DNA of 64,000 nt from Leisingera sp. ANG-Vp. GTDB lineage: Bacteria > Pseudomonadota > Alphaproteobacteria > Rhodobacterales > Rhodobacteraceae. How positions within the stretch are numbered: position 1 is the stretch's first letter; each line of letters starts with the position of its first letter. The notes beneath the pieces were generated by a model. That model searched no databases. It was not told the origin of the DNA and saw nothing but the letters and a program-made list of their open reading frames with translations. The stretch spans positions 1 to 64,000 of the forward strand of contig NZ_JWLD01000002.1 in assembly GCF_000813725.1 (NCBI RefSeq), written 5' to 3'. This document shows positions 35,510-57,919 of this stretch, piece by piece. The position numbers were made by a program, and so were the translations under genes.

Positions 35510-37327
35510 TCAATCGGCCTGGTACCACCAGACGTCGGGCATGAAGCCTGTCCGGTCGCCGTATACCGGCAAGCTGTCCGGAAAACGCATTTCCTTGACA
35601 TGGGCGATCCGGCCTGCGTCGAACTTCCAGAACGGGATCACATAGCGTCCGGCGGTCAGCACCCGGTCCAGGGCCCGCACGGCCGCGGTGAAATCTGCCG
35701 GATCCTTTGCAGTCAGCATAGCGTCTATCATCGCTTCAGCCGCCGGGCTGTCCATGCCCATCAGGTTGCGGCTGCCGGGCTGAGTGACTCCGTCGCTGCC
35801 CCAGTAGTAGCGCTGCTCATTGCCGGGGCTTAGCGATAACTCGCGGCGGTAGCGGGTGAGATCGAACTCATAGGCGTTTTGCCGTTCAACAAATTGCGCG
35901 TTATCAACGGTTTCCGGGATCAAGACGATGCCTAGCCGTTCCAGTGCGCGGGCATAGATTTCCGAGACTGTCTTCATCTCGCCATCGCCCTGCCGGATCA
36001 GCAGGCGGAGTTCCAGGGGGGCGCCTTCTGCGTTGCGCAGCACGCCGTCTGCGACGGTCCAGCCCGCATCGGAAAGAAGTTTCATCGCCTTGCGCAGGTT
36101 GCCGCGGTTGCGTTTGCTGCCATCGCCCTTGGGCAGCGTGTATCCTTCCAATGTCCCTGGCAGCAGGCTGTTATGGAAAGGCGCCAGAAGCGCCAGGACT
36201 TTACCGTCGGCCGCACCGGGCTTCAGGCCGAGTTCCGAGCCGGAAAAATACGAGGTGATACGAGGTTGAACGCCGCCGGTCACGGTGCCGTTGATGTATT
36301 CAAAGTTGAAGGCCAGCAGCAAGGCCTCGCGCACACGCCAGTCATCCAGAGGCGAACGGCGGGTGTTCATCACCAGCCCGGTCATGCCCGAAGGGCGCTG
36401 GTGCGGAATCTCGCTTTTAACCACGTCGCCGCGGGTGACGGCGGGGAAGCTGTAAGTACTGTCCCATTTGTCGGCATTGAACTCGCGCACGGCGCTTAGT
36501 TCGCCCGCTTTGAAAGCCTCGAACAGAACTGTCTGATCGCCGAAGAAATCAATGCGCAATTCATCAAAGTTCTGAGTGCCGCGGCGGAACGGCAAATCTT
36601 TGCCCCAATAGTCTGGGTTGCGGGTCAGGCTGACAAAGCGGCCCGGCTCGAAATCTGTTACCACATAGGCGCCGGTGCCGGTTGGAGCGCCGCTAATGCT
36701 GCCGCTGCCGAATTCCTTGCCCTCCCATTGCGCTTTCTTGAGGATCGGGCGCAGTCCGGCGATCAGTGCCAGCTCCCGGTCTTCGGTGTTGAAAGTCAGG
36801 CGCAGGCTGCGCGGGCCGGTCTGCTCAATGCGGTCTACCTTGCCCCAGAATCCGCGGTAGCGGGGGTGGCCCTGGGTTCCAAGAACCTCATACGACCATA
36901 TCACATCATCGATCGTGACCGGGCTGCCATCGGAGAATCGGGCCTCCTCCCGCAGGGTGAATTCGACCCAGGATCTGTCCTCGGGCACCTCAATCGATTC
37001 GGCTAAAAGCCCGTAAAGCGAGAATGGTTCGTCCCAGGACCGGCCCATCAGGCTTTCATAGCTCCAGAACCTCAGCTGCCATGGAACGGTGCCTTTGAGG
37101 GTGAAGGGGTTCAGCGAGTCAAAGCCGCCGGTATTGCCGAAAACCACCTTGCCGCCCTTTGGCGCATCCGGGTTGGCATAGGGTAAAGACACAAAATCCG
37201 GTGGCAGGGCGGGGGCTCCGTACATAGCTATGCCATGGGCTGATTCTGCTTGCGCAAAATTAACCCCGGCGAGACAAGTGATTCCGGCCAGTGCCATGCG
37301 CAGTTTCGGGAAATTTTCTTTTCTCAT
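35510..37327 (-). CDS. Extracellular solute-binding protein, family 5 (YejA-like)
   Basis: 605-residue periplasmic oligopeptide-binding protein. The signal peptide ends at about residue 27 (GVNFAQA then ES). Family-5 landmarks are GTQGHPRYRGFWGKVDRIEQ, PTGTGAYVVTDFEPGR, LTRNPDYWGKDLP and SPLDDWRVREALLLAFNFE. The length and the N-terminal AMYGAPALPPDFVSLPYANP pattern point to the YejA branch, which binds microcin C-like and murein-derived peptides. The permease and ATPase genes that should accompany it are not beside it, so it must work with components encoded elsewhere. Confidence 0.9.
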   Translation of the reverse strand: MRKENFPKLRMALAGITCLAGVNFAQAESAHGIAMYGAPALPPDFVSLPYANPDAPKGGKVVFGNTGGFDSLNPFTLKGTVPWQLRFWSYESLMGRSWDEPFSLYGLLAESIEVPEDRSWVEFTLREEARFSDGSPVTIDDVIWSYEVLGTQGHPRYRGFWGKVDRIEQTGPRSLRLTFNTEDRELALIAGLRPILKKAQWEGKEFGSGSISGAPTGTGAYVVTDFEPGRFVSLTRNPDYWGKDLPFRRGTQNFDELRIDFFGDQTVLFEAFKAGELSAVREFNADKWDSTYSFPAVTRGDVVKSEIPHQRPSGMTGLVMNTRRSPLDDWRVREALLLAFNFEYINGTVTGGVQPRITSYFSGSELGLKPGAADGKVLALLAPFHNSLLPGTLEGYTLPKGDGSKRNRGNLRKAMKLLSDAGWTVADGVLRNAEGAPLELRLLIRQGDGEMKTVSEIYARALERLGIVLIPETVDNAQFVERQNAYEFDLTRYRRELSLSPGNEQRYYWGSDGVTQPGSRNLMGMDSPAAEAMIDAMLTAKDPADFTAAVRALDRVLTAGRYVIPFWKFDAGRIAHVKEMRFPDSLPVYGDRTGFMPDVWWYQAD

Positions 37328-37407
37328 TTTGCCAACAATCCCGCTCTGCCCTTATTTTCTTGACTAGGCACGCTACGCGCGCCTTTTCGTCTTTTCAAAC
37401 TTTTAGC

Positions 37408-37436
37408 TTGGACGAAAGCCGGAAATTGCTTATAAA
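37408..37436 (+). promoter_or_regulatory. Sigma-70-type promoter of a candidate small RNA
   Basis: TTGGAC and TATAAA are separated by exactly 17 bases, five of six matches to consensus in each hexamer. Transcription would begin near 37443. Confidence 0.55.
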
Positions 37437-37442
37437 GGGATC

Positions 37443-37516
37443 ACTGCTCGATAGGTTTCTTGCCTGTATGAAACCTGCCTCAATAACTAACGCCCGCCTT
37501 GTGCGGGCGTTTTTTT
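37443..37516 (+). ncRNA. Candidate trans-acting small RNA
   Basis: From the predicted start to the end of the T-tract gives about 74 nucleotides. The first hairpin is AGGTTTC / GAAACCT with a 10-base loop (37453-37476); a short single-stranded AU-rich stretch (caataacta) follows, then an intrinsic terminator. A promoter, a hairpin, an AU-rich segment and a U-tailed terminator are the parts expected of an Hfq-bound small RNA, and hfq is in this window. No homologous family is recognised. Confidence 0.45.
37490..37516 (+). terminator. Intrinsic terminator of the candidate small RNA
   Basis: ACGCCCGC and GCGGGCGT form a perfect 8-bp stem with a CTTGT loop followed by T7. Both flanking genes point away from it or lie downstream, so it does not end either of them. 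Confidence 0.85.
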
Positions 37517-37653
37517 CTGCGCAGTTCCTTTCCACCGCTGACTGAAAATGCCCCGGCGTAAAGGCGCCGCGGCTCCGTAGTCTTACGCGTTTCTTTTGCA
37601 TCTGCAGCATGGCACAGTGCGGCCAGTTTCAGTCAGCTGAGAGGTAGAGAGAC

Positions 37654-38427
37654 ATGTCCTTGCAAGGAAAGACAGCCGTAGTCACCGGGTCGAACTCCGG
37701 CATCGGCCTCGGCGTCGCGCGCGAGCTTGCGCGCGCGGGCGCAAACGTGGTGCTGAATTCTTTCACTGACCGCGAGGAGGATCACGCGCTGGCAGAAGCC
37801 ATCGCCCGTGAATTCAGCGTCAAGGCCCAGTACATCCAAGCTGATATGTCCAAGGGGGAGGACTGCCGGGCACTGGTCGAAAAGGCGGACGCCTGCGATA
37901 TTCTGATCAACAATGCAGGCATCCAGCATGTGGCGCCGATTGATGAGTTCCCGCAGGGCAAGTGGGATGCGATCATTGCGATCAACATGAACTCGAATTT
38001 CCACACTATGGCGGCCGCTCTGCCCAGGATGCGCGCGGCCGGCTGGGGACGGATCGTCAATATCGCCTCGGCGCACGGCCTGACGGCTTCGCCTTACAAG
38101 GCGGCCTATGTGGCGGCCAAACACGGTGTTGTCGGGATGACCAAGACTGTGGCGCTGGAAACCGCTGAGGAGCCGATCACCTGCAATGCGATCTGCCCGG
38201 GCTATGTGCTGACACCTCTGGTGGAGGCGCAGATTCCGGACACCATGGAGAAATACGGCATGGGCCGCGAGGAGGTGATCAAGAAGGTGATGCTGGAACG
38301 GCAGCCGAGCCGGGAGTTCGCCACGGTTGAGCAGTTGGGCGGCACGGCAGTGTTTCTGTGTTCGGATGCGGCTGCCCAGATCACTGGAACCACGCTCAGT
38401 GTCGATGGCGGCTGGACTGCGCTGTAG
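37654..38427 (+). CDS. bdhA: 3-hydroxybutyrate dehydrogenase
   Basis: 257-residue short-chain dehydrogenase that oxidises D-3-hydroxybutyrate to acetoacetate when polyhydroxybutyrate stores are used. The cofactor motif VVTGSNSGIGLG, the NNAGIQHVAPI stretch, the catalytic Ser in IASAHGLTAS with YVAAKHG, and ICPGYVLTPLVEAQI are all characteristic of this subfamily. GAGAG precedes the ATG. A patatin-like hydrolase gene follows on the same strand. Confidence 0.93.
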   Translation: MSLQGKTAVVTGSNSGIGLGVARELARAGANVVLNSFTDREEDHALAEAIAREFSVKAQYIQADMSKGEDCRALVEKADACDILINNAGIQHVAPIDEFPQGKWDAIIAINMNSNFHTMAAALPRMRAAGWGRIVNIASAHGLTASPYKAAYVAAKHGVVGMTKTVALETAEEPITCNAICPGYVLTPLVEAQIPDTMEKYGMGREEVIKKVMLERQPSREFATVEQLGGTAVFLCSDAAAQITGTTLSVDGGWTAL

Positions 38428-57845: not shown

Positions 57846-57919
57846 TGGAGCGGGTAGCGGGAATCGAACCCGCGCGTTCAGCTTGGGAAGCTGACAGGCT
57901 ACCATTACATCATACCCGC
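57846..57919 (-). tRNA. tRNA-Gly (anticodon CCC)
   Basis: 74 nucleotides including an encoded CCA. The acceptor arm GCGGGTA / TACCCGC, the D-arm with AATGGTA, the anticodon stem TCAGC / GCTGA around TTCCCAA (anticodon CCC), and the T-arm GCGGG-TTCGATT-CCCGC all pair. It reads GGG codons. Confidence 0.97.

Follow-up and report, generated by a model that had tools for sequence, protein, structure and literature searches.

A candidate base-pairing small RNA, near-universal in Rhodobacteraceae, with complementarity to the long mraZ/dcw leader

Several of the closest described systems to the small RNA reported here come from Rhodobacter sphaeroides, where the 5' leader of the dcw cluster is also released as the sRNA UpsM (PMC5089854). 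According to the accessible text of that paper, UpsM starts 268 nt before mraZ and is 206 nt long, RNase E cuts it to 130 nt (Hfq- and RpoHI/RpoHII-dependent), and Weber et al. describe R1, the 5' domain of the dcw leader, as "hardly conserved" (PMC5089854). A second R. sphaeroides sRNA, StsR, is described in the available portions of the relevant papers as a 72-nt RNA that depends on RpoHI/RpoHII (PMC8307010, PMC11354728) and as binding UpsM and rpoE mRNA (PMC8307010, PMC11354728, PMC8625941), with a seed on rpoE that starts 10 nt after the GUG (PMC8307010). SorY (RF02651) is a stand-alone sRNA of Rhodobacter. Enterobacterial Hfq sRNAs of the RyhB/MicC type combine a hairpin, an A/U-rich linker and a terminator with pairing beside an RNase E site. 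The RNA described here, from Leisingera sp. ANG-Vp, stands alone like SorY and resembles the enterobacterial RNAs in these features, the pairing being predicted; in similar length and in its predicted pairing with the UpsM/dcw leader it is like the published StsR, from which it differs in expected map position and in rpoE pairing. It differs from UpsM in that UpsM is the leader itself and carries the partner site, whereas the RNA has a gene of its own, some 0.75 Mb distant in the genome G071. In comparisons with Rfam models the window reaches 12.5 bits for SorY (RF02651; cut-off 111) and 26.3 bits for RyhB (cut-off 55), and MicC was not singled out; no Rfam 15 family reaches its gathering score for the RNA in either search mode, and the 17 matches of the 501-base stretch at E <= 10 are all sub-threshold.

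The gene lies in the window, by which we mean the whole 64,000-nt stretch of DNA that was analysed. The original prediction had seen there a promoter (TTGGAC, 17 nt, TATAAA), a hairpin and a terminator with seven T; all are present in the sequence, and the promoter elements are invariant across 49 aligned loci (L001, L009-L028 and L033-L060, the partial matches L029-L032 being excluded). On the forward strand the -35 TTGGAC (37408..37413, TTGG invariant in the 49 loci) and the -10 TATAAA (37431..37436, TATA invariant) are separated by a spacer of 17 nt, and an upstream block, AAACTTTT (37397..37404), abuts the -35 and is invariant in the same loci; it is perhaps an activator or UP-type element. 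Across these loci AAACTTTT, TTGG, GC and TATA are fixed while the promoter spacer is variable, and the R. sphaeroides copy, which is outside the 49, keeps AAACTTTT, TTGG and TATA and has CG in place of GC. The output of a generic scan did not include the TTGGAC/TATAAA promoter; it gave two promoter-like sites in 5 kb, where 1.3 would be expected, and 10 terminator-like sites, where 4.7 would be, so that single matches are weak proof; the proof comes from comparison across loci. Promoter spacing, the onset of invariance and the end of the T-run place a small RNA of about 74 nt at 37443..37516 (+), the first two marking 37443 as its likely 5' end; its transcription is predicted. In the fold, an unpaired 5' tail (37443..37451) is followed by hairpin 1 (37452..37477; stem nt 10-17/28-35, 10-nt loop UUGCCUGUAU), unvarying throughout alignment A1 (30 copies), by a single-stranded A/U-rich linker that is a candidate Hfq site (37478..37488), and by an intrinsic terminator (37489..37516) with a 9-bp stem (37489-37511) and seven T at 37510-37516, the first two of which lie within the stem. 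This form fits an Hfq-dependent regulator, and Hfq binding is predicted. As had been claimed, neither neighbour needs the terminator: the solute-binding protein (SBP) gene points away and bdhA lies downstream.

The 74-nt RNA folds at -25.0 kcal/mol, where shuffled sequences give -14.0 +/- 2.7 (0/200 as good, z -4.05), and alignment A1 shows covariation in the terminator helix, where compensatory changes let one pair occur as CG, GC, AU and UA and where 9 cells are changed on both sides against 1.8 in shuffles. Loss of the hairpin pairs in related genomes had been named as grounds for abandoning the prediction; the compensating terminator helix tells against such a loss, and covariation gives no verdict either way on helix 1, which is without any variation in A1. 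The view that this is a self-contained sRNA is strongly supported by conservation. The unit (37400-37530) occurs once in its own genome, and the RNA is matched in 21/21 genomes of the genus and, at E <= 0.01, in 289/295 of the family (288/294 counted by genus), including 258 of the 260 family genomes that are >=90% complete and <=5% contaminated. The six family genomes that lack a BLAST match have no covariance-model match at E <= 0.001 either, and four of them are <90% complete. The covariance search in relatives that had been proposed as a check, run with a model (R1) built from 30 copies, found the RNA in 292/292 genomes of an order draw (112 genera, one match each); since these all come from the window's family, they are a second family sample rather than a sample of the wider order. 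In a class-wide draw four same-family genomes exceed 100 bits, and outside the family 13 of 285 genomes give 26-32 bits (E >= 5e-4), which we read as noise, so the sequence matches put the probable distribution boundary at the family Rhodobacteraceae. Nucleotides 1-42 are fixed in the 49 aligned loci while the sequence outside the unit varies, and conservation ends close to the T-run. The A1 copies, being the 30 best-scoring, represent the conserved end of the copies, and nt 1-40 are identical in ten divergent copies chosen for low model scores. To judge from these sequences, this is a convincing sRNA gene, near-universal in the family and covered by no Rfam family.

A candidate partner came from BLAST against the RNA's own genome, in which the best non-self match of the unit is 17/17 at G000:C95:53024-53040 (E 0.17), antisense and upstream of mraZ (PF02381), the gene after which reads by eye as rsmH; nt 20-36 of the RNA (37462..37478) are a perfect 17-nt complement of this leader. 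The search that supplied leader loci found mraZ in 119/121 genomes of the order, and from it the 30 best-scoring loci (not a random choice), together with the own locus and that of G071, gave 32 loci from 22 genera. We treat G071 as R. sphaeroides 2.4.1 or a near twin: its PufX matches the R. sphaeroides sequence exactly, SorY exceeds its Rfam cut-off at 1633 kb, and an array of CcsR-like repeats stands 2-3 kb ahead of the mraZ leader. The complement of nt 20-36 is present at 0-2 mismatches in 29 of the 32 leaders, and with zero mismatches in 10, against best counts of 4-7 mismatches in 96 base-shuffled loci. In L119 (4 mismatches) and L126 (5), whose counts fall among those of the shuffles, an indel form occupies the corresponding place in the leader, and the leader of L134 (G384, genus g311) is without a complementary site while the RNA of the same genome is intact as far as nt 41. 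In the 30 loci whose MraZ KGR codons could be located, the start of the site precedes these codons by 226-353 nt. In G071 it corresponds to UpsM nt 54-70, 17 nt with one mismatch, the R. sphaeroides site having an A-C mismatch. Identity per leader column is 0.95 in the site, a value helped by selection since the 31 rows compared were kept for having it (L134 was dropped), 0.65 in the preceding 70 nt, 0.83 in UpsM 71-83 and 0.92 in UpsM 84-133, a leader domain almost as conserved as the site itself.

Folding of whole-molecule duplexes was uninformative (with UpsM, RNA A -58.3 against a shuffled mean of -53.6 and RNA B -79.3 against -68.7; with the own leader, -62.9 against -53.2 shuffled); windowed pairing that includes opening costs, used in its place, gives a net -13.8 kcal/mol for the own leader and -11.6 for UpsM (G071). 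Elsewhere in the RNA, CUGCUCG at nt 2-8 complements CGAGCAG about 37 nt past the site in 31/31 leader rows, in the right order, a fit that is only suggestive. Because the pairing region of the RNA never varies, compensating changes between RNA and target cannot be shown. At the level of sequence, the RNA's own promoter and terminator, its extreme conservation and the complementary leader site are established: by sequence and comparison, the unit is independently promoted and terminated and has a conserved complementarity to a distant transcript, as expected of a trans-encoded sRNA that acts by base pairing. We think it likely that the RNA is such an sRNA, near-universal in Rhodobacteraceae, and that its conserved partner would be the long mraZ/dcw leader, which in R. 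sphaeroides is also released as UpsM.

In such an encounter the loop UUGCCUGUAU would make first contact with AUACAGGC of the leader, the leader would next invade hairpin 1, displacing its 5' arm, and form a duplex of 16-17 bp with the RNA, probably with the assistance of Hfq. From the fragment lengths (206 to 130 nt) the RNase E cut in UpsM is computed to lie near nt 76. Since the duplex would end about six bases before this computed cut, its likeliest outcome may be that the cut is opened or steered, giving less UpsM and less read-through into dcw; since UpsM is so abundant, it would also titrate the RNA. The RNA's stretch fits the start of the division-cluster message, and so the RNA probably helps to set cell division and cell-wall building. 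The dcw cluster of this family has an unusually long leader, which yields UpsM, and a conserved block inside its domain R1 (placed there by the predicted fold) thereby gains a candidate sRNA partner.

A second site in the own genome may be a further partner at the level of the genus, as a candidate target or sponge. At G000:C86:113863-113881 (L003, L156), antisense to RNA nt 28-46, all 19 of 19 positions are paired with one G-U, and the net pairing is -15.1. The site begins two bases past the stop codon of a gene (G000:C86:113546-113857) for a 104-aa protein that has a signal-like start and is unmatched in Pfam at E <= 1. In 19 of the 21 genomes of the genus (L157-L176 read) the stop codon is followed by TTATTGAGGCAGGTTTCC, altered in no more than two or three bases, the exceptions being L171 and L176; the site is kept even where the sequence further downstream differs.

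The same pairing could be real but reversed, with UpsM acting as a sponge for the window RNA and other mRNAs as the RNA's targets. We regard this as a possible though rather unlikely account. It would suit the description of UpsM, in the part of that paper available, as the most abundant sRNA, at about 60% of Hfq-bound material (PMC5089854), as well as the invariance of nt 1-9 and 37-40, neither of which the 17-nt site needs, and the presence of the second antisense site in a 3'UTR. However, the site lies in a 5' leader common to UpsM and the full dcw mRNA, so that the operon would hardly escape an effect, and own-genome BLAST found no other family-wide targets among its 8 matches. Two of these are of >=17 nt at >=95%, both antisense to likely transcripts; a further match, of 36 bases at 78%, is over the terminator. 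Identity with StsR was our first identification, made from the literature and the UpsM match and withdrawn after the map-position and rpoE tests, and we now consider it doubtful that the window RNA is the orthologue of StsR (formerly RSs0827) of R. sphaeroides. Its length of about 74 nt is close to that of StsR; the predicted pairing of the R. sphaeroides copy with UpsM spans 17 nt and has a single mismatch (hybrid -29.9, compared with -26.8 at a locus at 858 kb); and its TTG-N20-TAT, which would suit a housekeeping sigma factor too, fits the -35 TTG/-12 TAT promoter rule, as stated in the accessible text of the source (PMC10673084), better than does the TTG-N18-TAC of the 858-kb locus. Map position argues against it. 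RSs numbers are, from what is available of the source, intergenic-region numbers, with IGR_0827 coming from the same group (PMC6509803), and they follow the chromosome, with 0680 (the CcsR-like array) at 692 kb, 0682 (UpsM) at 695 kb and 1543 (SorY) at 1633 kb; 0827 is therefore expected by interpolation near 853 kb, whereas the copy of the window RNA lies at 1444.0 kb. As the R. sphaeroides stretches analysed yielded no rpoE, close relatives were used for rpoE pairing, and of the 60 strongest hybrids of the R. sphaeroides copy with Cereibacter johrii rpoE none gives a favourable net pairing near the seed. A scan of 822-880 kb for a loose promoter-plus-terminator pattern gave units at 840,695 (weak hairpin) and 858,060 (strong), and the latter is predicted to pair with C. 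johrii rpoE at +16 to +38 (hybrid -24.1, net -8.6), close to the StsR seed as published, and with UpsM nt 12-32 (-26.8), its UUCACUGUCCC being complementary to UpsM nt 13-23. The window RNA thus probably differs from StsR, from which, with StsR known from descriptions, it is set apart by the indirect evidence of map position and rpoE pairing; telling sequences are CUGCUCGAUAGGUUUCUUGCCUGUAUGAAACC for the window RNA and CUUCACUGUCCCUC for the 858-kb locus. On balance we lean towards a family-defining sRNA distinct from StsR, kept with its sequence nearly unchanged since the origin of the Rhodobacteraceae because it forms a fixed RNA-RNA switch of division with the dcw leader/UpsM, with UpsM receiving two sRNA inputs at different segments (nt 12-32 from the 858-kb StsR candidate in R. 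sphaeroides, nt 54-70 from the window RNA family-wide) and with the 3'UTR site as an addition in the genus.

The remaining alternatives look inward, to the neighbourhood and to the RNA's own reading frame. Upstream lies the divergent gene for a family-5 solute-binding protein (SBP_bac_5; 35510..37327, minus strand) and downstream bdhA, for 3-hydroxybutyrate dehydrogenase (37654..38427, plus strand; TIGR01963 at 359 bits against a cut-off of 307); both are outside the RNA and conserved, the SBP gene being found diverging upstream in 93, bdhA downstream in 85 and both in 84 of 94 loci, some of which share a genome and which were viewed over a flank of about 1.5 kb, shorter at contig ends. A cis-acting attenuator or leader of bdhA would suit the shared strand, the 137 nt between the end of the RNA and bdhA, and the frequency of bdhA downstream, but bdhA does not always follow, as it should behind a cis leader: in 9/94 loci it was not found in the flank and the RNA is intact. 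The most invariant part, moreover, is nt 1-40 with the mraZ-leader match and not the terminator, and we think this reading very improbable. The original prediction had also taken the position beside bdhA as a hint of storage-polymer or peptide-uptake control. That idea gains no support: the RNA body pairs with the starts of the neighbours no better than elsewhere. The SBP gene scores -12.8 (27th among 38 crudely called gene starts, the best being -22.1) and bdhA, scored apart since it is missing from the automatic gene list, -16.0, against -31.6 for the mraZ-leader site and -27.0 for the 3'UTR site by the same measure, and both neighbours were rejected as targets. The bdhA neighbourhood is old synteny and gives no evidence for a target. 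Still less credible is a short translated peptide from the AUG at nt 26-28: ATGAAACCTGCCTCAATAACT is open and invariant except for one base in A1, but third codon positions are equally invariant, no ribosome-binding sequence stands ahead of the ATG, and the stop is unconserved, TAA following in many relatives while the frame is open in the window.

In the open-licence literature we found no description of the pairing proposed here, and names beginning RSs13 or RSs14 are absent from the Rhodobacter papers found there. The main text of the R. pomeroyi sRNA paper (PMC4809877) does not mention hydroxybutyrate, mraZ, Rhodobacter or cell division, and "Intergenic 134" and "60" of P. denitrificans could not be matched to the window RNA from the accessible part of their source (PMC5107571). 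Three minor observations concern other sequences. In R. sphaeroides, L102:8060-8139 (G071:C4, about 858,060-858,139), with TTG-N18-TAC and a terminator, is a possible StsR locus; its promoter is poor, its length is about 78 nt, not 72, and it could be merely the end of the upstream gene. In the window, upstream of the SBP gene, CAACAATCCCGCTCTGCCCTTATTTTCTTG at 37333-37362 has similar forms in other genera among the matches listed and is possibly the promoter region of the SBP gene itself. Within the window an Rfam gathering score is reached only by a tRNA gene, at 57849-57919 on the minus strand.
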